This document shows, in pieces, positions 6,748 through 64,000 of a stretch of 64,000 nucleotides of DNA. The number at the start of each line of letters is the position of its first letter. Position 1 is the first letter of the stretch. Both the position numbers and the translations under genes were made by a program. This DNA is from Bryum argenteum (Eukaryota; Streptophyta; Bryopsida; Bryales; Bryaceae): positions 2,296,501-2,360,500 of the forward strand of contig CM073325.1 of NCBI GenBank assembly GCA_037043015.1, given 5' to 3'. The notes under the pieces are model-generated. The model saw only the letters and a list, made by a program, of their open reading frames with translations. It searched no databases and was not told the origin of the DNA.

Positions 6748-7730
6748 TGCGACATTGATCCAAATCCGAACTCATTGACGAAATCCAAATCAGAGAAGAT
6801 TCGGATTTTCTAATTTCATAAAGTGATACTTATGCTAACTAAAAATCAACTTGGGGGGATTTGAGTATCTTTAAACTCTTGTAGAATCCCTTGAATCTAA
6901 TGTTTAATCTGGTTCATTTTTGTGTTCACAAAGCCATGAGGGGAGCCCTTGATGTGTTACTTCTAAACTGCTCAAATGTGGCATCTTATCTTGAACTAGT
7001 TGTGAATTATAAAAGTAAAACTCACGGTTGAAACCATTCAATTTAAATTGTACATTTTGGGTACATCAAATTCTGAAGAGGAAGTTATAATTTATGTTTT
7101 GCTTGGAGAGAGAAAGATTTTTGGGTATAATATAGGAAGCTCATTATAAAGAGTAATAATGCATTAGGAAGCTTAACTTCAAAACGTCCTAACCCAATTT
7201 AGCTAAAACACAAATCCTCAAAAACATCCATAGACAAAAATGTAGGTAAGCTATTTAGATCTCAAGGGTGCAATCTTGTAGTAGACTTAGTGTAAGTTAT
7301 GTGGACCAAAACTTGAGTCATGAAACCTCATAAATTGCTAGATTACAACATATTAGTACTCAAAACTAAATATAAAATATTATCATCTTCACTTTAGAAT
7401 GGAAATTCTAATGAAGTAGCTACTACAATGAAATAGCTCCAAAGAGAAAGTTTTTCACCTTCTTTTCTAAAACAACCTTGTACAAAAAAAAAAATATCTT
7501 CAAAAAAATATCTTGGCTAAAATAATAGCTTCGTAATTGTGAAAACTGCCAGAAAAAATTACAAAGAAAGAATAGTCTAAAACTAGACCCTTACATCCAT
7601 ATCCATACCTTATCCTCTAAATAACTTCACTTTAGTCAAAATGACCACCATTGAAAGCTAAAAACCAAAATATTTGAGCTATTTAATATCTATGTCTGGG
7701 GACACAATCATCAGCTTGTCCTTTGCACCA

Positions 7731-27739: not shown

Positions 27740-28671
27740 GTACTAAGGTATTCAAGGAATGTGGACCTTGATTTGGGTATTAAAGATGATAATGGATACA
27801 TGCTTTTTGAATCTGAACCATACAATCTTGTAGTAAACTCATTGTAGATCGTGTAGACCAAAATTAGTATCTTGAAGCCTTGTGAATTGCCAAATCATAA
27901 TGTATTAGTACCCAAAACAAACTACAAAATTTCATCATATTTACTTTAAAGTGGAGATTTTACCAACAGAGCTACTTTAATGGAAAAAAATTTCATTTAG
28001 AAAGTTGTTCATCTCAATAATACCCTTTTACCGAAAGTATTCATCAAAATAATTTATTGTCTCAAATAATAGCATTGCAATGGTGAAAATTTTGAAAATA
28101 TCTTTACAGGAAACATAGTCCAAAAATTAGACCCTTTGCACTCAAATCTATGCCTTATCTTCATATCATTTTTAATTTAGTCAAGATTTCAACCACTAAA
28201 ACTAGATAGTGTTAGATTATCTGTGTAACAAAATAAAGTTGAAGGAAGTAAATGAAGGTGATATGGCTCCTCAATAATAATTTATTCTTTCTCATTATTT
28301 ACTCTATATACATCGTAATACCAAATTGTTCGGATCAGAAAATTCCTACTAGAAAGTTTGTCTTCAACGGAACATTATGATCATGTAATTTTTTTGAAAA
28401 TCACTTATTATTTCACATATTAATCTACAATGGTAAAACATGTCCTATGTTCAAAAATCTAAAACCAAAAGTAGTTTTCACAAAAGGGTGCCATTGATTT
28501 ATACTCATTGTACAAGTTTGTAATTCTTAGAGAGAAAGTAGACTCAATTTGGAACCAAACTCAAGAAATTTTGTCAAAAAAGGACTGTGAATGAAGATGT
28601 TATGACTCTTCAAAGTTTCTCCCCTTCAACCAAAATATTGTTTTCTGACATCAAGGACTACTAGGGGTTAA
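27740..28671. mobile_element. ~0.93 kb TTAA-ended non-coding repeat (copy in + orientation)
   Basis: The right end reads GGACTACTAGGGG-TTAA (TTAA at 28668-28671), the same terminal motif as the MITEs. The interior matches 7.2-8.55 kb in the same orientation and 39.40-40.31 kb in reverse. The left terminus is not clear. There is no ORF, so this is a larger non-autonomous relative of the TTAA family. Confidence 0.65.
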
Positions 28672-51099: not shown

Positions 51100-52123
51100 T
51101 ACTGCTCTGCACCCCTTCTCACCGTGTCATCACGCCACGAATCTATGGCATTCAAGAACGGGAAATTCTCCATCGTGAAGAATTTCTGCGCGTACAACTT
51201 CACTCATGCATCCAGGAGACCACCAAGGCGGTTCCGGACCTTAGACTTCATGAAGCTCAGTGTCGAGAATGTTCGTTCCTCTTCTACAACGCCCAAGACA
51301 GCGGTAATGGCACTTCAGGCACACTGAGGATCTCGAGTAGCCCTCTGTAATCGCTAAAGTTCGTCATTGGACGCCCATGGCTAAGGAGGAAGAAGACAAC
51401 TCGAAATTGGATCAACTTCCGACGTTGCTCCTTCCCATCACCAGCCTGTACTCGCTGGACAATTGTATCCCCCGCCCTCCCTTGTTTTGCAAAGTAAATT
51501 TTTTCATTCTTAACATGAGCATTGGAGGATAGAAAGTAAAATTGACCTGCGAGCAATTTTCCATAAGATGCAAGTGCCCTGCGGCGGCCTGCATGCTTCC
51601 AAAGGCTATCAATTTTTGGAACGAGCAGTTTATCACGACCCTCAACTTCAGTACAGATCTTGCATCGGACTTGTCTCACATCACTATTCTCAGACACAAT
51701 GGACTCTGCCCAGGGCAACCTCGCCGCCCACGAATCCTGCCAAACACGGTTTCGTTCATACCCACGTGGCCGTAATCGCGCAAGCTCATGCGCAGGAGAG
51801 GCCTTGATCGGGTCGAGCTCTTCCACCTCCGACCCCACGCCGCGGCGTGCTCGAGCAAGCTCATGCGCCAGGAAAGCTAATTAAACCCGGGTCAAACTCC
51901 TCCACCTCGGACATCGCAGGCACCGCTCGTTTATCTTCCTCGCCGCCAGCCAATGTCGATTGCACGCTAACATCACCCGAGGAGGACTACAGCTGCCATT
52001 GCTCCCTTCCACCTCAGTCGTGTCGAATTGAAGGGAGTGAATCTCGTTTCCAAGGGAGTCCACCTCGTCAACTTCTCCGCTGCCATACAAGAACTTGGTT
52101 AGTATTGACTGCTTGGGCGCCAT
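51100..52123 (-). pseudogene. hAT-like transposase-derived gene, internally deleted and broken
   Basis: On the minus strand a start codon at 52123 opens MAPKQSILTKFLYGSGEVDE, about 50 residues. After a disturbed stretch the frame at 51838-51284 reads RNRVWQDSWAARLPWAESIV, then the zinc-finger-like VRCKICTEVEGRDKLLVPKI, DSLWKHAGRRRALASYGK and GRPMTNFSDYRGLLEILSVP. This N-terminal pattern is one I associate with amplified hAT-like genes of seed-free plants. In another frame, 51279 to about 51125 encodes EEERTFSTLSFMKSKVRNRL and YAQKFFTMENFPFLNAIDSW with a TGA between, which is the C-terminal hAT dimerisation region. The whole catalytic core is missing. The left TIR of the 11.7 kb element lies 70 bp upstream of the start codon. 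Confidence 0.78.
51765..51916. repeat. imperfect ~75-bp tandem duplication in the hAT-like pseudogene
   Basis: On the minus strand CGAGGTGGAGGAGTTTGACC ... GCGCATGAGCTTGCTCGAGC is followed by CGGAGGTGGAAGAGCTCGAC ... GCGCATGAGCTTGCGCGATT. The upstream unit runs into a TGA in the relevant frame. Confidence 0.75.
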
Positions 52124-52192
52124 GAGAACAACGTCAATTGCACAAATTCAACCCTAGTGTCAAAACACCACAGCCAATACAAAAATGCAAAG

Positions 52193-52217
52193 AACACGCA
52201 ATTAAGCAATTATGCAC
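52193..52217 (+). repeat. left terminal inverted repeat (25 bp)
   Basis: Starts AACACGCAATTAAGC and ends AATTATGCAC. It is identical to the reverse complement of 63843-63867. AAAG lies directly outside. Confidence 0.92.
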
Positions 52218-52973
52218 TTTGCCAAGTGCACTCAATGGCATGTCAAAACAACAACATTTTCCTCCAAAATGAAAAAAAACAACAAAAATTCCACACAAAA
52301 AAAAAAAATTTAAATGTGGAGGCACTAAACTTAAACTAACGAGAAATAGTATTTTTTTAATAACAAATTTGTTGCTAAATCATGTTTTATTGCTTTGTAA
52401 ATACTACCAAATTATTATATTCAAATATTGCCAACATCTATTTTATTATTTTGTGTACCATATAAATTTTTGGAATACAAATCCCAATGGATCAATATGA
52501 AGGACAACGTCACGTCTTGGAGTGCAAAATTGAAATTTAAAGAATTTCAAAGATTCAATTTTGTCCTTGAACTTCCTATAGTGTTTCTTTTTAGATTCAA
52601 TGCAATTTTGATTATGAACTTCTACGTTGTACATTGCTATATGACATTTATATACTATTTTTGGCATTTATACAATAGACATACTTTATAAGAGATAAAA
52701 GGCCAACATGTGCTATTCAACGAGAAAATATGTAGCATCTCGCTCTATATTATATGAAAATCCATACATAAAATTCATAAACGTACTTTAGAACTCGATA
52801 GTAAATACTATAATATAACATGCATAATACTATAACCAAACATCTCATACTTTACTCAAACATATCAATCAAACCTAACATGCCACCTAAACATCATATT
52901 GACTTGCTACTTATAAATCTCGATGCTCTAATCATCCTCCTCCATTGTCCTACCTCAGATCGCTTCATAGGCC
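52218..52973. other. left AT-rich non-coding arm of the element
   Basis: A-rich tracts and no supported gene. An 87-codon frame at 52428-52691 has no recognisable content. Confidence 0.5.
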
Positions 52974-54153
52974 TCATGTACCATACGATCCATCTTGCCG
53001 CCCGGCGACACCGGGGATCAATAGAATCTTGAAGACCGATGGACGCAGACTCTCTCGTGATGCGTGAATCGCCCGGCTCACCGTGGCGAGAGTGTACCTT
53101 ATGCCATCGGTGTTATAGTAGAAGCCGTCTCTAAATGTCATCATTGGTGCAAAGGCCTCGTTGAAAGCTATGGTGTCCGCCGATTCCGTAGATTGTGGAA
53201 TGGATGGCACCATTGGTCTCGTTTGAATTGGAGTATCTAGAACCACCTCTGGTATCTCCGATCCTTCCTCAAAGCCATTAGGTTCCACGAGGCGAATGAA
53301 GCCCGTCGTCACATGAGTTATGATCGGGCGAGGTACATCATCTGCCATACTCACGCGGTATGCCGTACATTTGCCAATGTGTATGGTCTTTGGAATAGAA
53401 GTATCCGCTTCATCTCCAAGCTCGTCCTCGTCACTACCGCCTTCCTCTCGAACCTATGTTCATCGGATCTTCACCGGAAATGCCAACGCCGGTGCTCCTT
53501 GTTGCACTGTCATCTCGAGGATCTGAAATTGTCCTTGGAAGTTGTCAAACAACTTTGTATACAAGAAGTTTAGCCTTTCCAGGCTATCGTCAATGACAAT
53601 GATCTCCGATCCATGGAAACCTCCATGAAGGATTGTCGGAATGGCCGTTGTAATGTTATACGCAGACAAACCCCAACCAATTGGCAAATACGCATCCACC
53701 ATCTAGAGAGAGCTCGGATGGCGATCGCCGAGTCTATCACCCTCCGACGGTTGATGTGTGCTCACCCCATTGATCGTGAAATACAAGTGGTAGTGGACGG
53801 TCCCGTAAACATAATTCGGTTTGGGGAAGTATCAACGGTGTTGCATATGAACAACAACACCTCCAAATGGTTCCACCGCTTCGCTTGTCAGAATCGACCA
53901 CCCCGTGTAAAGTTGAGGGCATACTGATCAACCGAGTTTGCGCCAAATGCCCAACATCCATGTCGTTGAGTGCCACCTTCGGGAAGTTTGAGCTTCGCGA
54001 ACAACTCGGCATTAAGAACACGGCCGTGGTGGTAACGAGAATACTGTTCCATCGTTCAACGCCCGTCATCCATGCGACAATTGTGCAATAACTTTGGTGA
54101 ATCGCTTCTTCTTCCTGGGGACCGTCTCCACGCCTTCCCCACCACGCCGACAA
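52974..54153 (-). pseudogene. unrecognised ORF remnants of the 11.7 kb element
   Basis: Three minus-strand open pieces in changing frames: 53737-54153, 53460-53702 (includes YLPIGWGLSAYNITTAIPTI and HGSEIIVIDDSLERLNFLYT) and 52974-53354 (includes FNEAFAPMMTFRDGFYYNTD). In the first interval the alternative frame contains LNAELFAKLKLPEGGTQRHG, which looks more protein-like than the long open frame; frameshifts are therefore likely. I recognise no domain. They continue the coding direction of the ParB-like gene and probably formed its 3' part or separate exons. Confidence 0.5.
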
Positions 54154-54726
54154 TCAACAACCCACAAGTACGATTGTGTCAATCACGGACATCGTCGATG
54201 AAATAATCCTTCCCAAGCTCGAACCATAAGATGATCCGGTGTCTTGTGCGAGTTGGCCTTCGAACTTGTGTAACACCCACTTCCATGTGACGGTAGTGAC
54301 ACCACCTTCATCTGCTGATGCTTCCACTTCTCCATGTGTTCTTGTTGCAATGTCCTGATAGTGAACCTTGATGGAGGTGGGAATAAGTTCACTTATGTCT
54401 GTCAACTTGGACACCTTCTCTCGTGTAGGTTTAGCCCATGCGGCTTTTGTGTCTTTGGCCAAGTCCTTGCCAAATGCATCAATTTGCTCCTTGCCCCCGG
54501 GAAAATAATTCCGTACAGATATGTGGAAGAACTCTTCCATGGAATTAGGTGAGCACTCTTTGTTGGACACCATTAACCAACGAGTGATATTAGCGACCGC
54601 TTCTTGTCTCATGATCCGGTCAACTGCACCTGCAATAGTACGGGGATCCCTAGACGCATCCTCGATGGCGTGAAAGTAATATGATTGTCGAGTCTGCGGT
54701 TGTCCTCCCCACCGGCTTAGCCGCAC
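54154..54726 (-). pseudogene. unrecognised ORF of the 11.7 kb element
   Basis: An open frame of 190 codons on minus, including YYFHAIEDASRDPRTIAGAV, RWLMVSNKECSPNSMEEFFH and TWKWVLHKFEGQLAQDTG. No domain recognised. It lies directly downstream of the ParB-like ORF and may be the next part of the same protein, since the two open frames almost abut (54726/54736) in different frames. Confidence 0.5.
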
Positions 54727-54735
54727 AAGACTTGA

Positions 54736-56296
54736 CTAGCCGTAGATAAGCGGATCGGGAACCACATTGAGCGGCCTCAACCAATTCACGGTCATTCGCT
54801 TCCGACGCTCCCGTACATCCACAGTAGGATCTAGGTTGTTCTTGTCTGCAAACGCCTTCCACTTCTTCTCCTCTTCCTTGCTATAAAAGAGATAGCCATC
54901 TTCGTAGTCCTTGCACACTTGAAGGATAGCTTCGTAACACTCGCGCCGAGGATTCCACGCATGAATGGTCAAGTCATGCATCTGCTTTGCCAACCTCTTG
55001 ATTGTTATACCTTTGTTGCCCTCAACAAGGTTCTTCTGCACTGCATTAGCCGCACACACCAGAGCTTTAGCCCTGCGTTCATCGTCTGCACGAACCAAGC
55101 TATCAGGCTTCCCATACAACTCCCAAATCTCGCGTAGCTTTCTCAAGTCCTCATCCATGGTGGAATATTTTGTCCTATTCCATTCCTTCTTGTTGACCCG
55201 CGCGGACTTCGCTAGGTACAATGCAGGATCATCGTATACGACAAATGTTGCCTCCCGCATTTCAAAGATGTTAACAAACTCAAGATGTGAGTTTGTGTTG
55301 GGCAACCTCTTCCTTCGCAAAATTGCAGGCTGCAACTATGTGTTGTCCATCCACTGGCTCCCAAATGATCCTCTCCTGAAGCCAACACAACTGAGAGTGT
55401 GTTGTACCGTGAATAGACGCTAATCCGTGTGTATCAAATATGCGTTGGAACTCTCGTTGTGCTTCTTTTCGAGGGGAATGACACCTCTTCTCGCCGAACC
55501 ACACCATCGTCGGTAGTGACATCCACAATGTATTGATCGGACGAAGAACCAACTTGCTCACACAAGTCTTGTTCTCCGGATGTCTCATAAAGTCATAAAC
55601 CTCTCTAACTCTCTTTGCAGAGAGTACCCGATGGTTTGTCAAAGGACTCTCCACTTGGATAATCTTGTCGATCTTCACCTCGAATACAATGTCCCCCCAT
55701 AGTGATCCTTTCGCAATTTCTGCTTCAGTAGGTATCGGTGCTAGGAACTTACTTGACGTTGAGGCCTCCAACGCCATCCTCGGTTCCGACTCTGAATCCT
55801 CTTCGTCCTGGTCCGATACTTCTTGAAACTCGTCCTCCACTGCCGATACATTCAGTGAAGAACTCGGTACATAAGCAGATGCTCCATGCTGAGCTGGAAA
55901 CCTCATGGTTGTAGACCCACTACCCCTACCACGTGCCCTCGATCCTCGTCCAGTTGACCTCGCACCACTTGTAGCCACATTCGACGATCGTCCACCTGAA
56001 CCAGATGCTATGTCGCCTCTCTCACGTCGTGGCCGCTTTGAAGGACGTCCTCTTCCACATAGAGGAACACTTCCTACAGGCGGCTCAGTAGTCGCGATAC
56101 GCTGGACGGGCACAGATTGTGCAATCTGCTGAAGTGGCTGGTAATCCAACTCACTTCCAATAACATAACTACGGTGAATTGGATCCGTCTCTTCTGGTTC
56201 AGCTGGTGGACCTTGTGATGTTGCATGTGTTGGATCCGCCTCTAGTAATGCTTCGTACTTAATATGGGCATCCATAAGAACCATTGCGCGCCACAT
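54736..56296 (-). pseudogene. ParB/sulfiredoxin-like domain protein, frameshifted
   Basis: The upstream open frame (56296-55280) has a low-complexity, basic and Gly/Arg/Ser-rich linker (GRGRPSKRPRRERGD, TGRGSRARGRGSGS) and an acidic stretch. Then comes VFEVKIDKIIQVESPLTNHR, REVYDFMRHPENKTCVSKLV and IIWEPVDGQHIVAACNFAKE. The beta-strand, helix and DGQH order resembles ParB/Srx-fold nuclease or CTPase domains, where DG.H lies in the nucleotide pocket. After a frameshift near 55300-55330 the frame 55335-54736 continues with FVVYDDPALYLAKSARVNKK and LRKLREIWELYGKPDSLV, as expected for the same protein. Family assignment is by eye. Its function in the element is unknown; DNA binding is a reasonable inference. 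Confidence 0.6.
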
Positions 56297-56302
56297 CCTC
56301 CC

Positions 56303-56700
56303 GTGATAACCCTAGACAATGTGACATATGCTCCCGCCGTCGCGTCGCGTGCGCAGGAGAGCGATATTCAGCCAAAATTTCTGCAAGGTATTGAGAAATT
56401 TCACGGACCCAGAACTTGCAAGCAAGGATTCTGGAATGGATGCAAGAAGAAGCTGTCTCGACAGAGAAGTCTTCTGCATTGCTTCATCAGCATCTGGGAC
56501 ACACATCACATATATCATGTCAGACGATGGGCGGGTAGTAATTGCTTGAATCTCGCCAAAACGCTTGCCTAACGCTGACGTACGGTCCCTTATTTTAAAA
56601 GGTTGGTGCGTCATCCACAAATAAGGCTTTGAGGGGTCCTCTTCTACAATCCACCATCCGTGCTTCTCCCATGTCTTGTCGATTTTGCAGTTGGTTCCGA
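56303..56700 (-). pseudogene. N-terminal ORF piece of the element's left arm
   Basis: The minus-strand frame includes WWIVEEDPSKPYLWMTHQPF, RFGEIQAITTRPSSDMIYVM and SLLASSGSVKFLNTLQKFWL. It ends at a stop near 56312, just before the ParB-like frame begins. It is probably an upstream exon or a frameshifted 5' part of that gene. No domain recognised. Confidence 0.5.
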
Positions 56701-56730
56701 CGTTGCGGGCATGGCAACCTGATCATCATT

Positions 56731-58230
56731 GGAACACAATATCATAATGGTTAATATGGTGTAATTTAGAGTCTATTTGACAATTGTTTTGATTTCTATT
56801 CAATAAAATATTGATAACTTATACCAAAATTCACCATCCGACCACATGGTTCATGTGAATATAGACAAACATAGGCCATTTTGTTTGTTTTGATTCTAAT
56901 ATGACTCCATGTGGAAGTTGTTTTATGATTGACGACTCTTTAGCCCCGAAAAGCCTAGGCCATTATTCTTCAAGAAACACTTCAAATCAGTCACTATCAA
57001 AAAGTGGCTTCAAAATCTAGTTTTAGAGTGAAATTTAAGACTTCTAATCCTAGAATCTTAAAATAAACATTGATATAAAGCCACCAAATTTTTTAGGCTA
57101 CTATGCATCGGAAGGATTAAAATATTATAGCATTTGAAATCATAAGAATAATTCATTTGCTTAATTGTATTTAGTGGTCTAGCACACTTTAATTTCACTT
57201 GGCTTAAAAAAAATTCACTATACAAGGTCTAACTTCTTTAAAATCATGATTGGTATGATCATGTTGGTTACCTTAAACCAATTTCTAGACATGGAAAAGG
57301 TGTGTAGCATATTCAAAACAAATATACAAAGGATCGAGATTGAAATTATTTGACAAAATTTTATGCCACATTTTAATCTTTTGTGAACTCAACATGCTTT
57401 AGAATGAAAATCCAAAATGATTGATAAGAATTTATTTATCACATAAAATTTTCGCTAGAAAAAAAAAAATTTAAATGAAGATCTATAGGTTTTATGTAGA
57501 AAATAGTATTTTTTTTCTTTCCCTTGACCAAAATGTGTGAACACGTTTGATCAAGTTAAATGCTCTGTTCTGATGAAGACAATTTTAGAAATTTGGAATC
57601 GTAAAAGAAGGTAATATTTTTAGTCTCAAACGATTTGTATGTGAAAGATGTTAGTTCTACAATATCTACATTAATATTTTTACTATCATGTGTTGCTAAA
57701 TGTTTTCATTTTTCTTGTTCTTAAGCAAGTAACTATAATGTATGACGGGTATCAATATGGGCGGGTATCCCTCATAGGCGGCGGTATCGACGTTTGAAAT
57801 GGCTTTAATATAGTAAATGGGATGTTTATTGGAGTTCACTTGGTTGATTGTTTCAGGGTGTGCTTGCACACACCCCTTGCAATCTCTAATTTTTTATTAT
57901 TTTTATTTTTAAAAGATTTTTAAATTTTTTTAGGGTTTAAGGTTTTAAGATTAGGATTTTGGTGGCTTTGGTGGCGGCATGTGGCATGCAACAAAGACCA
58001 CAAAGAGATGAAGGGAGGAAGACGAAGATTTTAACATATCGAGTCAGAGTGGACAACTTGAATAGTAGCGTCACATGCACAAGAGCGAACAAGAACCCAA
58101 AATGCACGCCGCAATGTGAGCAAACAATACCAAAGTGATAGCAATGAGGAATAGCAACAAGATCGTAAAGTAGCAAGCATCGATTCGATAGCAACAAAGA
58201 AGCGCGCGATCTGGTACAATAGCAAGAATG
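56731..58230. other. AT-rich interior of the element
   Basis: No supported gene. Long minus-strand frames at 57937-58578 are mirror images of the Arg/Lys/Glu-rich repeats on the plus strand and are not called. Confidence 0.5.
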
Positions 58231-58365
58231 ATTGGTACTAGAGCAAGCGGCGATTCGGTACAACAAAGAAGAAGCGATAAGGAGAATCGGCAAAAAGATT
58301 TTTGGTTGCAACAAGTCACGAAACTCTCCTAGTGCTCTACTGGATCGTCCTAGCGGCGTTCTTGA

Positions 58366-58495
58366 GAAACACGAGCAAGAGCGGAGGAGGAAGAAAAAAG
58401 GCAATAGCAACCTGCGAGAACACGAGCAAGAGCGGAGGAGGAAGAAACGGCAACAACGACCTTCAAAAACACGAGCGGGCGGAGGAGGAAGAAAA
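58366..58495. repeat. ~60-bp tandem repeat, about 2.5-3 copies
   Basis: ACACGAGCAAGAGCGGAGGA followed by GGAAGAAA occurs twice, then a shortened version (ACACGAGCGGGCGGAGGA). In one frame it would encode Arg/Lys/Glu-rich peptides, but no gene is supported. Confidence 0.8.
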
Positions 58496-58536
58496 CGGCA
58501 AGTGTGCGAGAAGATCGAAGCGGGGAGGTCGGATGG

Positions 58537-58706
58537 AAAAAAGAGAGGAGGTGGTAGAGGTGTTCGCCCGGGTACCACCCGCCCCCCCTGCGCTTCTTTG
58601 GCGGTGACTGCGGTCGAGTGCGGTGCGCGCTGCGCACCTCGACCATGCAGTCACCCGCCAAAGAAGCAGGGGGCCATGGGGTACCCGGCCACCTCTACCA
58701 CCTCCT

Positions 58707-58741
<35 letters not shown>
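58537..58741. repeat. ~180-bp GC-rich imperfect palindrome followed by poly-T
   Basis: The left arm begins AAAAAAGAGAGGAGGTGGTA (58537) and the right arm ends TACCACCTCCTCTCTTTTTT. Inner pairs include CCGGGTACC/GGTACCCGG, GCTTCTTTGGCGG/CCGCCAAAGAAGC, GGTGACTG/CAGTCACC and TCGAGTGCG/CGCACCTCGA. The centre is near 58626-58634. A run of about 31 T follows the right arm to 58741. GC content is far above the surroundings. Confidence 0.9.
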
Positions 58742-58745
<4 letters not shown>

Positions 58746-58973
58746 GAAATAATGTCATTTTTAGTTGAGGATGTCTAATCAAAGGTATTTTTATTGCTGT
58801 ATTATAGCAATTTTGTTGTATGTTAAGTTTTTTAAAAAACTTTCTATAATTATGAAAACAATTGAATGATTTTAGTAGAAGGCTAAATAATGTAATCTAC
58901 AAGTTATTGTTTCACTAAATTCTTGAAATTTTGTTGTATGTTGTGAATCATTTTTTTAATTCTTAAAATTGAC

Positions 58974-59011
<38 letters not shown>

Positions 59012-60195
59012 CCTTTCAAATTCCAAGATGACTCAAAATGTAAGTTACTAGTTGAATAATCTCTAACGCACAAGTGTTTGCATTGCTAAATTCCGGTTTA
59101 TTTGTTGTATGTTTCCAAGTCTATATATTTTACATCTATTGAAGAGCATGTCTAAGAATGGACATGTGGTGTGAACACCACTTGGTTCTAAGCCCTATAA
59201 AGCTAACTCATTGAGGTGGGAATAATTTAGTTCCAATTTGATTTAATATTTTTTGTTCTTCTATAAAACTTTGTTCCTACTTGAGTGCAATTGAATCATT
59301 GATTGCAAGTTTTATTCAACTTTCAATTTTATAATGTAGTAGAAGTTAAAGTTAAAGTTTAAAATTACCATATTTTCCAAACAATAATATATTGCATTCA
59401 TACAAGAACACATGATAATTCTATCCATCGCTATGATAATAGATCATACAATGAATATTGCAAATATTATTTTTTCTTGCAAATTTAATTGAACCTATAA
59501 GTAAGTTGTAACTTTCTATAATCATTGTCATTGCAATAATTATTCCTTTATCCTAAACAATACCACAATCTTTGTGGTTTTATGCACGCTCAAAGCATGA
59601 TGTAGGATTTATAATAGAAATTGCCATAGGTACAAAGTAAATTGACGCCATTTCATGTTGTCATTGTCTTTTTTATTTCAATCAACGATTTTTAGCAATG
59701 TATTATGAAAGCGCAAACAATCCAATTCCTAAGGTGTAACATAGTCTTGGACAAGGTATCAAACATGATTATTGTTATTTCCATGTAATAATCAAAACTT
59801 AGCATTGTATTATTTTATCCAACACAGGTTTGTAGAGGTAGATAAACCGTTAATTTATATATAAATAAAGTACACAAGATAATCCTAAGTAATTTAACAA
59901 CTTTAAACAATCTTAACAATTATATACAATATCATTCTGAACTTAGTAACCAACATTAACAATCATGTTTGGAAGCAAAAATTTATGTCCTAGAATATAT
60001 GTTTCGTTTGAATGAATGATATTTTCTATTGCTTACACACATATTTTCACATGTTTGTAATGTATAGGTTCCTATTAGTTCAACAACGACAATGGGCGTT
60101 TCAATTTTCAAATCCCTTTAGTACATCAAAACACCCAATCTGACGATGTCATTAATCCAAACGGTTCGATGGGAGCGCGATTAATCTGACGGCTC
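58742..60195. other. AT-rich interior of the element with a second poly-T tract
   Basis: Contains a T run of about 31 at 58980-59011 and otherwise AT-rich sequence. No gene seen. Confidence 0.5.
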
Positions 60196-63100
60196 GTGCA
60201 AGGCGGACCGAGATGGTATTACTCGGTCATTTCATCTCAATTGGGAAGGACATTTGAATTGTTATCGAAAGAAGAGAAGTTGTCGGCTTGCACTAGGGAG
60301 TATACATTTGAAATCGGCGCGCAATTGCATGGATCGAAGTTATTCCCGTCCGAGGTGGCGAGACGCATCACTAGGGTAGACGATGCATTGCGTTGGGTGA
60401 GGAGAGATTGTGGGAGAGCGTCTTGGAATGTGTGTTGGATTGATCATCCGTTGGCACAAGTCTTATCTACGTCGATAAGCCGTGGAACCCACCATTCAAA
60501 ATGGCGAGGACGTATTGAATGGGTCTCAAACGCCACCTGTGCGGAGGTTGGCACAAGAATTTGATTTCCATGACAACTTCAAACACACCCTGATCCACCG
60601 ATAGGTCTCGGCCAGCAGTGATAGCTTCAAACCCCGTAGATGAGAACTCTCCATTCTCTCAAAGTCTCCTTCCAACATCCGAGATTTGCCCCATGTAGAT
60701 GGGCTTATTAAATGTCGGAGCGGCCCGACGTCCATATTCTATGCAAAATAGAAGAAGCGAGAGATTCCAGGAGACATCCTCTGAGAGAAGGTATATCTAC
60801 AAAGGTATCTCTTCTAAGCGTCAAGGGGCAATAGGGCGAGGAGGATGCAAACAAAATTGTTTGAGAGACATTCAAAACGGTATCTATTGGACATGCGTTA
60901 TAATGCGTGGGCTTCTACTTATGCAATTCAAATACTTGGATGAGACAAATCTTTCTTTCTTTTTATACACGGACGGAACGTTTCCAACGAGATAAATTTG
61001 TCACAAAGTTAGATGGCAAACAAGTTTGCAATGCTTGTTATCTTTCTGGGCGTTGGATATTCACAAAGACGGTTTAAACAATCAAAGAAGGAGTGTTTAA
61101 TATATGGAAGAGTGGCAGCGATTCACGGTAACAGCCTTTCAAACCCGGTTCGGAAAAGCAATTAGAATGTCGGCGGCGAGGCCTCATTTAAATCATTTGT
61201 GGACGAAGCTGGTTGTCCTCAACCTCATCGTTCAATTTTTCGTAAGGATGACAACGAAGTGGTGCCTCTTATTCTCCTGCCCATGAATACTCAGAAGTCT
61301 GATATATTCAATTACGTGAACGAGGAGGTGAAGAGAGTTTGTAACGGAGAAACCATTTCAATTAGCTCGTTCGGGAGGATGTGGCGCATCGGATATCCTC
61401 ATGTCCGGTACCTCCATTCTCGAGGTTTTCAAAGTGTTATCACTGCTTTGGGAGTATAAATGTGCCGTGGAGGGAACCACGAATGCGGATCTTCGGATCA
61501 AAATAAAAGAGTTGTTTATGATGCATCTGCGTATTCGGATGGAGGAACGGAGGGATTATTGGATATTTAAGAGGTCGTCTATATCAGCCGGAGTTGTACA
61601 TGTGCATCATCGTTGATGGCGTGGATCAAAACACTACCATGGTACCGAGAATCGTCAAACCGTGAAGAACATCGAGTATCGGTTTGTGAAGACCCATTGT
61701 GTGGAGCCCTCGTGCGTGGGATTGGTTTATCTTTGCGATGTGTGGTTCGGCGCGCACCAAAACGTGATAGCAACCAGGTGGTGAAAGCGCATTGTTGCGC
61801 GTGATAGGAGATGTGAAGAGGAGAAAACGCTTTTTGCCTCCAACATTACGTATCCAAGCGGATAACTGCACACGAGAGAATAAAAACATTTACATGTTTG
61901 CTCTATGTGTTTCATTGGTGGGATTGGGTTTTTTTCAAGAGGTGGAGCTCTCTTTCCTTATAGTGGGCCATACACAAGAAGATATCGACCAACGCTTTAG
62001 TTGTATATCTAATGTGTTGAAGAGGTCGGACATCGACTCATTGAAAGAAATGCTTAGTCTAATAGAACAAGGTACATCCATAACAGAGGCGTTTGTTAGC
62101 GCCAGACTCTTAGAAAATGTGTGGGACTGGAAGTCCTTCATAACCCCTCACTTATCGACGGTGGGGGGACTCTTTGGTTGGCATAACCTTTCCGCACCAC
62201 ATGCGATTCTATATGGACAATCGAGAGGGGGTCGGTAAGGTTCGAGTACAACACAAACATTATAGCAAGGATAAATGGGGACCTGAGTTAGGGACAAAGA
62301 CGTTGCAGTCGCTACCAAATAAAGAAGAACGACCATCGTTTGCAAAGGTGTTTGCAGCTGATGAAAGGGAGTTGAAGGCATTGGATGACTTTATTGCATA
62401 CAAAGAAAGGTGCATTCAAAGATTCCAACATCCGGAAAAAATGGTGAAGCGAAAAGAGAGGCCGAACATTTGAAACTATACCTAGCCGAATTTCCAAGCA
62501 AAGATCGTAGCAACGAGCATAGTTCTTCACAGCTTTGGCCTTCAGAGGTATTAGAGACATCACCTACTATAGATGCATCAATAGATGTTATTGACAATCG
62601 AAATGAATCAAACCACGAGATTACTATTGTGGACCAAATAGTGGCGATGCTTCCAAATTCTGAGGCTAGAGGATACTTTGGTCATCGAAGAGAGAGGCCA
62701 CCTAACCAAGCAGTGCGTAGGGCACAAAGAACGGCTCGCAGTCACATCTTTGATGGAACCGAAGAAAGAGCGGTATCAGAAGGTACTGACGATCCTTTTC
62801 CCCAATTTGATCCTCAATCCGATATCCTTTCGGACAATTTGTAGCCCTCGGTGTTGATCGTGCGAGTAGTAGACGAGGTGTTCCATTTTATTTAGGGAAG
62901 GTGATTGAAGACGGAAAAGGCCGGAATAAAATCAAGATGAAAGTTTGTTGGTATTGGCCAATCATACGAGGGTTGTTGTTGATGACCGAGATCCTCTTTA
63001 CAACGGTATCTGTTGTTTGGATTCATTGTGGGAGCCATCCGGGAGAATCACGATTGGATAGAGAAAGAGGCATGTATTTTTTTTCATGGGCGGACGAACC

Positions 63101-63243
63101 GAAAAGAATCATGTCCGGCCATAGACAGGAGAAAACCGCAATGTCTTTGGAGTCAGGGTTCCAAGCAACATTTGCATTATCCAATCTGCGAAGGCCCACA
63201 TATTAGAATATATCGCAATGCAAACCCAAGCTATCGACGATGA
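60196..63243 (+). pseudogene. DUF7869-type putative transposase, multiply broken
   Basis: Coding pieces in shifting frames run left to right. 60196-60564 includes TRVDDALRWVRRDCGRASWN. Around 61100-61459 are YGRVAAIHGNSLSNPV, DEAGCPQPHRSIFRKDDNEV and ISISSFGRMWRIGYPH. 61792-62238 holds LRIQADNCTRENKNIYMFAL and ELSFLIVGHTQEDIDQRFSC, the most diagnostic block. 62410-62844 is a polar C-terminal region. 62845-63243 holds GVDRASSRRGVPFYLGKVIE and DPLYNGICCLDSLWEPSGRI, then TAG at 63059-63061 and a frameshift at a T run before HGRTNRK. The DNC...ENKN and GHTxEDIDQxFS motifs are characteristic of proteins I know as DUF7869, found in multi-copy families. An RNase-H-fold DDD/E transposase is my inference. 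Confidence 0.72.
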
Positions 63244-63842
63244 CCGGTTGCAAGCCGCATTAGATATTAGTACGTAGTCCATGTGTTTTGTGTACACATG
63301 GTGTTTCTAAGTGTATATACGTACTAGATAGTACAAGATTGCAAGGATTATTTTCGGGACGTGTTGTTGCGATGGACATATGGGTTGAATTTAGTTGTAT
63401 TATCAGTTATATACATAACTTGGTATACGTTTAGAATCTGTGTATTTAGATACTTTTCTACCACATATATACAAAGCACAATATAGAGTATATTTTTATT
63501 AAATGTCCATTGGAACAATTTGGTGCCTACTTTTATTAACAGTTTGGTGCTCGCGTCATTTTGCTCACCAAAAATATATTAACTATAATCTACACAATTT
63601 GTAGCATATACTAAGCATTTCAAATATCCCTGGACAAAAATATTTGTATTATTCACATGGATTTATACCAAAAATATGTTCACAATGCCATTAGAAGTCT
63701 TTTTATATTACCACTTCTGACAATACACAATATTCTTTGCAAAACACCTTTTTTTCCAGAAAAAATCAAGTTTAAAAATAAAAAATTCCATTTTTGCAAG
63801 CAATAGCCATCGTAGTACCGAAGTGCACTTTTAAATAGCCGG
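63244..63842. other. right AT-rich arm of the element
   Basis: No ORF. AAGTGCACT at about 63820-63828 mirrors the copy inside the left TIR. Confidence 0.55.
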
Positions 63843-63867
63843 GTGCATAATTGCTTAATTGCGTGTT
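63843..63867 (-). repeat. right terminal inverted repeat (25 bp)
   Basis: Exact reverse complement of 52193-52217. Followed directly by AAAG at 63868-63871. Confidence 0.92.
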
Positions 63868-64000
63868 AAAGGAAAGAGTGAGATTTGAAAGCAATGCCAG
63901 TGGGCTTATATTTGTGGTCATACAAACGTTATTCTCCATCGCTGAGAGGCCGACAAAGTGACGAACTCCTCCGCGCTATTCTCCGTCGCTGACAACCTCT
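63868..64000. other. flank to the right of the element
   Basis: 133 bases to the window edge. TTCTCCATCGCTGA and TTCTCCGTCGCTGA form a short direct repeat (about 63932 and 63979). Nothing else can be said. Confidence 0.5.

Follow-up and report, generated by a model that had tools for sequence, protein, structure and literature searches.

A 64,000-nucleotide stretch of the Bryum argenteum genome (GenBank assembly GCA_037043015.1, contig CM073325.1, positions 2,296,501 to 2,360,500 of the forward strand), hereafter the window, contains a single DNA transposon of ~11.7 kb at 52193..63867, bounded by 25-bp terminal inverted repeats (TIRs) and a target site duplication. The left TIR (52193..52217, plus strand) and the right TIR (63843..63867, minus strand) are complementary at 25 of 25 positions, a match that far exceeds chance, and direct reading of the sequence places AAAG immediately outside each, at 52189..52192 on the left and 63868..63871 on the right. 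Between these ends lie two long conserved genes, arranged head-to-head and diverging from a 3.3-kb middle: P2 on the minus strand and P1, whose product carries the domain DUF7869, on the plus strand. We hold it highly probable that this is a complete TIR transposon of a young family, with the DUF7869 protein as its likely transposase, and that the breaks in the reading frames of the window copy are mostly base-calling errors. The single element, its 25-bp ends, the AAAG outside both of them and the two divergent gene arms had been proposed in an initial annotation of the window, and all were confirmed by the analyses described here.

Paired ends and copy number

The source genome (259 Mb, 25 contigs) was scanned for the ends of the element. 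With up to two mismatches allowed, the 25-mer TIR gave 343 matches (169 forward and 174 reverse), and a control in which the 25-mer was read backwards gave none. Past the TIR the left-end and right-end sequences differ, and the ends pair as left with right. When the ends were extended and up to three mismatches allowed, the 39-bp left end had 119 matches (66 exact) and the 44-bp right end had 83 (26 exact). The pairing analysis took in the 100 listed of the 119 left ends and all 83 right ends, and found at least 71 inward-facing left/right pairs within 30 kb, where 200 random placements of the right ends averaged 0.7 pairs and never gave more than 3; 59 of the 66 exact left ends had a partner. 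Two length peaks were seen among these pairs, at least 34 falling at 11.0–12.2 kb and at least 16 at 3–5 kb. The TIR proved exact over 25 bp in the window but varies in the family, as 43 of the 83 right ends begin with AACGCG in place of AACACG (one base changed); two right-end variants are in circulation.

It could be argued that the two ends belong to separate miniature inverted-repeat transposable elements (MITEs) that face each other by chance, and short elements with the same ends do exist, as the pairs of 3–5 kb testify. This explanation, to which we assign a negligible probability, is refuted by the pairing of the ends (at least 71 pairs where 0.7 were expected, with a sharp peak at 11.0–12.2 kb). 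It is further opposed by the distinct sequences that follow the left and right TIRs, by duplications that match across the full span, and by the alignment of copies across the gene arms. In the comparison of the window copy with 12 more full-length and 5 short copies, the gene arms could be aligned in all 12 of the further full copies. The window element is probably a member of a young, recently mobile family.

Target site duplications and empty sites

Exact 4-bp duplications, mostly composed of A/T, flanked 16 of the 18 copies (13 of 13 full-length copies, the window copy included, and 3 of 5 short ones). When other duplication lengths were tested in the same 18 copies, 2 bp was found in two, 3 bp in one, and 5, 6 and 8 bp in none, and control 4-mers taken 10 bp farther outside were identical in 0 of 18. 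The 4-bp duplication that had been read from the window alone is thus of constant length in the family.

Empty sites were compared for one copy, L032/L033, which has the duplication TATA. Its flanks, joined with a single TATA, matched all 40 scored of 2149 candidate places, at 97–98% identity over 157–160 of 160 bases and without interruption across the junction. The element thus went into a repeat and has exact limits. Diverged empty versions of the same site are also present inside the window, at 7229-7628 and 27784-28206. The features that characterise a TIR (class II) DNA transposon, namely terminal inverted repeats, duplications of constant length and (for one copy) empty sites, are therefore all present. 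The initial annotation had named outcomes that would refute it: TIR pairs that never enclose these ORFs, a lack of 4-bp duplications at other copies, and ends that belong to two MITEs; each was tested and none occurred.

P1 as the candidate transposase

P1 (60092..63277, plus strand) measures 3186 bp in the window copy and would encode ~1060 aa, with a broken frame; comparing it with L047, L041 and L039, three other copies, gave its start and stop. The part of DUF7869 that can be read in a single frame in the window (61789..62169, plus strand) matches the domain with E = 2.7e-39 and 135 bits, and in copy L041 the match to DUF7869 (PF25273) reaches E = 1e-51 and 176 bits, where the Pfam cut-off is 26. 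A search for relatives found 107, and an alignment of 67 sequences revealed a conserved acidic triad. The first candidate catalytic residue, D262 of the L041 open reading frame (ORF), is encoded by GAT at 61615..61617 (plus strand) and is D in 67 of 67 aligned relatives. The second, D344, lies in a QADNC motif (GAT, 61861..61863, plus strand) and is D in 92% of 64 relatives. The third lies in a GHTHEDID motif (61981..61989, plus strand) and would be either D384 (61981-61983, GAT; D in 97% of 61 relatives) or D386 (61987-61989, GAC; D in 95% of 60). D265 is also largely kept, being D in 92–97% of the relatives that have the column. The resulting spacing, D-81-D-39/41-D, and the two motifs are likely those expected of a DDD RNase H-like transposase, and P1 is likely the transposase of the element, as the initial annotation had suggested for its DUF7869 ORF and as the conservation of D262, D344, D384 and D386 supports.

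The relatives with names come from Branchiostoma, Lytechinus, Dreissena, Mercenaria, Mytilus, Darwinula and the liverwort Riccia sorocarpa, the animal groups being molluscs, amphioxus, sea urchin and ostracod. The animal and Riccia sorocarpa proteins share with P1 the domain, a zinc-ligand-like CxxC and the D-D-D columns, and are 24–37% identical to it. Solved structures searched with DUF7869 gave no convincing match, the primase matches having E ~0.3 and covering a short zinc-ligand-like stretch. None of 22 pattern matches in viral contigs was a DUF7869 relative, and a literature search found no paper naming the domain. Among 13 pattern matches in bacterial and archaeal genomes there were 2 relatives, both on short metagenome-bin contigs.

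These two stretches of DUF7869-like coding sequence (L081, 2767-3432, and L082, 5475-6257) are 25% identical, come from Bacteroidetes metagenome bins and are probably eukaryotic contamination; no P2 relative was found on either contig. Separately, the alignment of plant and animal DUF7869 proteins has in common a C-terminal stretch of the type PFxIGKV...VxWY, which is perhaps a small domain of its own.

P2, a long gene on the opposite arm

P2 (52928..56745, minus strand; stop codon 52928-52930) measures 3818 bp in the window copy, would encode ~1271 aa, and occupies the arm opposite P1 in all 13 full copies. In the window it is split into 18 in-frame pieces, which together cover 1100 of the 1271 residues of P0111, an unbroken 1271-aa homolog found by profile search that is 96% identical to the L041 read-through query. 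P0111 (source tag lgn) is read as an independent sequence from assembled public reads; taken together, the 13 copies supply in-frame matches to 1265 of its 1271 residues. Longer frames than those of the window survive in copies L039, L041, L047 and L059. Since the long frames of different copies overlap, introns are not needed, and both P1 and P2 are apparently intronless.

A single 588-aa piece of P2 found 3 relatives, and 17 came from a profile search based on a longer read-through, several of them 1,125–1,488 aa long. Common to the family are an N-terminal block, a linker rich in RG, one block marked by TNHRVLS and VDGQHIVAAC and another by IDCRRGGG, and a tail of the form DGFYY...TRHG at the C terminus. 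The segment with the TNHRVLS and VDGQHIVAAC motifs (approximately 55286..55740, minus strand) is the part of P2 that suggested ParB; for the label ParB-like of the initial annotation, the support is the motif VDGQHIVAAC. No ParB or N4/N6 DNA methyltransferase model was found among the matches of P2 in Pfam, PHROGs and NCBIfam at E ≤5–10; the best library match, to a PHROG of unknown function, had a value of 0.0018 and came from one member of 14.

P2 was also aligned by hhalign with segments from 12 phage regions (5 fused, 3 ParB only and 4 methyltransferase only). The probability was 0.08 on a 0–100 scale against the eight phage ParB segments and 0.26 for the C-terminal part against the methyltransferase segments, both with shallow profiles and neither in support of such a domain. 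Over all P2 segments the values ranged from 0.07 to 0.74 (Neff ~2.5–3 on both sides). ParB in P2 is accordingly kept as a lead, short of a finding. The C-terminal part had seemed similar in layout to a permuted methyltransferase lacking catalytic motifs, an impression that hhalign did not bear out. Solved structures searched with P2 yielded chance-level matches or none, none of 106 pattern matches in viral contigs was a P2 relative, and the 5 matches of P0111 in a phage collection were all at chance level.

Differences among copies cluster at CAG and CTG

Differences among the 13 full copies are concentrated in the genes. Substitutions in the gene arms amount to 2.4–8.5% per 500-bp bin and indel events to ~1–4% per base, whereas values of ~0.7–2.5% hold for the ends and for most of the middle, the exceptions in the middle being the bin of a palindrome (14.9%) and two bins at 3.3–4.5%. 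In four blocks taken from outside the genes the mean difference is 1.3% (range 0.65–2.65%), and this low divergence suggests recent spread of the family. The variant rate is highest at CTG (30%) and CAG (29%), followed by CCG and CGG (13%), compared with 5.1% for coding sequence overall. Among CWG cells (CAG or CTG) in the gene arms 640 of 1352 are changed, with deamination-type changes (C-to-T, G-to-A) in 67 of the 640; the changes seen most often turn CTG into CCG and CAG into CGG. CWG sites outside the genes are also raised, with 15% substitutions and 8% deletions at the centre. By residue of P0111, disagreement of the copies is highest for Q (0.179) and lowest for F (0.011).

CHG-methylated cytosines disturb nanopore base calling. 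Given the excess at CAG and CTG and the small number of deamination-type changes, the frame breaks of the window are probably for the most part base-calling errors at CHG-methylated cytosines, together with some true mutation. If so, the gene bodies were methylated in the tissue that was sequenced. What the initial annotation had called ORF debris is then better described as two long genes whose breaks are probably largely an assembly artefact at such sites.

The copies might instead have decayed by real mutation, the family being dead or moved by a few unseen intact copies. The broken frames of all 13 full copies and the indel rate of the gene arms are what decay would produce. Under neutral decay, however, the regions outside the genes would not be the nearly identical ones (1.3%). 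The changes cluster at CAG and CTG and are mostly of other than deamination type. An unbroken homolog exists in P0111, and the host genes NPH3 and SDHB in the same window, tested with Pfam, read through long frames. Real decay is disfavoured as the chief reason for the frame breaks, and we consider this explanation improbable.

Several observations weigh against the account preferred here, of a complete transposon with a DUF7869 transposase and frames broken mostly by base-calling errors. Neither gene stands in a single unbroken frame in any of the 13 copies examined, and hence no copy examined reads as autonomous. Besides Q, the Y (0.136) and H (0.107) residues of P0111 also often disagree. 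Positions within 2 bases of a CWG centre hold only 27% of the variant letters of the gene arms (on 6.9% of the bases), and far from CWG the genes still differ more than the outside (2.5% versus 1.1%); causes beyond CWG errors, true mutation included, remain. An exact duplication is absent from two of the 18 copies, L065 (GATA/AATA) and L067 (none). In P2, no recognised domain came from Pfam, PHROGs or NCBIfam. The hAT, CACTA, MULE, PIF, mariner and piggyBac families have Pfam transposase models; neither these nor any other Pfam transposase family matched 10 relatives of P1 at E ≤10, whose matches were to DUF7869 alone, besides noise from YajC and NAPRTase_N.

Relation to Sola transposons

Sola is a DDD superfamily, and DPPY is a methyltransferase motif. 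Repbase, according to an excerpt of PMC4455052, keeps Sola1–3 as a single superfamily. The window element might belong to it, as Sola1 or Sola2, with DUF7869 as the Sola transposase domain and P2 as a diverged accessory of the ParB-methyltransferase type seen in Ectocarpus; we regard this as finely balanced, with a slight lean in its favour. Sola2 elements of Dictyostelium and Polysphondylium, as described in the part of PMC3627910 consulted, resemble the window element in having 4-bp AT-rich duplications, short TIRs and, in some families, a second gene. The Sola2 TIRs measure 12–21 bp compared with 25 bp here, and the second Sola2 protein is Fanzor1. A 4-bp duplication, which is necessary for Sola and not sufficient, is found here in 16 exact cases, and the alignment of P1 with its relatives contains three conserved D columns, a candidate DDD set. 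A Sola1 element is entered for Physcomitrella in a review table (PMC9033089, excerpt).

The closest parallel in layout is Sola1-1_Ec32 of Ectocarpus, which the excerpt of PMC12477816 presents as a 21.5-kb element with a ParB-methyltransferase gene on the opposite strand. Both are large TIR transposons with a second long gene opposite the transposase, and both accessory proteins exceed 1,000 aa (1104 in Sola1-1_Ec32 and 1271 in the window element). They differ in size and host (21.5 kb in a brown alga, 11.7 kb in a land plant) and in the accessory itself, since ParB-like and DNA methyltransferase domains are reported for Sola1-1_Ec32 (PMC12477816, excerpt) and neither is detectable by sequence in P2. 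The initial annotation knew of no described plant element with this combination; as a general claim that would be too strong given the Ectocarpus example, although its host is a brown alga and no land plant.

Two points tell against placing the element in Sola: the hhalign values against ParB and methyltransferase segments (0.07–0.74 on the 0–100 scale) give the proposed accessory no support in P2, and IDCRRGGG is present where the DPPY motif was sought. The element is not filed as Sola; from its 4-bp AT-rich duplications and candidate DDD set, a Sola-like affinity is plausible.

A proposed mode of transposition

From these features we infer a cut-and-paste route in which P1 is catalytic and P2 assists. 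P1 is predicted from its sequence to be a DDD transposase with an RNase H fold. It would bind to both 25-bp ends, cut out the element and integrate it into A/T-rich 4-bp sites; a 4-bp stagger at this insertion would give rise to the 4-bp duplication. P2 could, with low confidence, be an accessory that binds DNA or chromatin and either assists the recognition of the ends or opposes silencing. Derivatives of 2.4–5 kb with internal deletions would be moved in trans. Two of these, L063 and L067, keep both ends and have lost most of both genes, so that they presumably depend on proteins made elsewhere.

A wider proposal, which we offer as speculative and on balance doubtful, is that DUF7869 is the catalytic domain of an unrecognised, eukaryote-wide group of DDD transposases, accompanied in plants by a new, dedicated family of partner proteins of ~1,200–1,490 aa with a role in binding the element and in the control of its methylation or mobility, and that the clustered base-calling errors record host marking of both genes and, much less, of the ends. 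The analysis connects an unnamed domain, found across animals and plants, with a defined mobile element whose ends, duplications and empty sites are verified, and so makes the function of the domain testable. It also brings out P2 as a large plant protein family without a recognised domain, standing beside the known theme of transposons with ParB-methyltransferase accessories. In some plant assemblies, transposon genes that are methylated can give the appearance of being dead: breaks to which an analysis of decay would assign an old age may be errors of base calling, and the positions of these may be usable as a crude footprint of methylation.

Middle region, related short elements and flanking sequence

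The central palindrome noted in the initial annotation is real: it is GC-rich and near-perfect, lies between the genes at 58537..58715, has a DNA fold z of -14.2 and is followed by a T run. It is not a fixed part of the element, however, as the block measures 69–360 bp among the 13 copies and is either unstable or difficult to assemble.

A second, related family of 3.5–4.6 kb is represented by L064, L065 and L066 (G000 C5:467583-471329, C5:14421259-14425305 and C8:2942050-2946810). Its members have TTGGCC after the TIR, show ~75–83% similarity with parts of the element in the window and do not have the gene arms; from these sequence features they are classed as non-autonomous relatives.

At the left flank of the window element, a minus-strand ATG lies 66 bp from the element (window 52121-52192), with the element upstream of it. 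The ORF concerned (51881-52147) has no Pfam match, and the insertion may separate it from its promoter.

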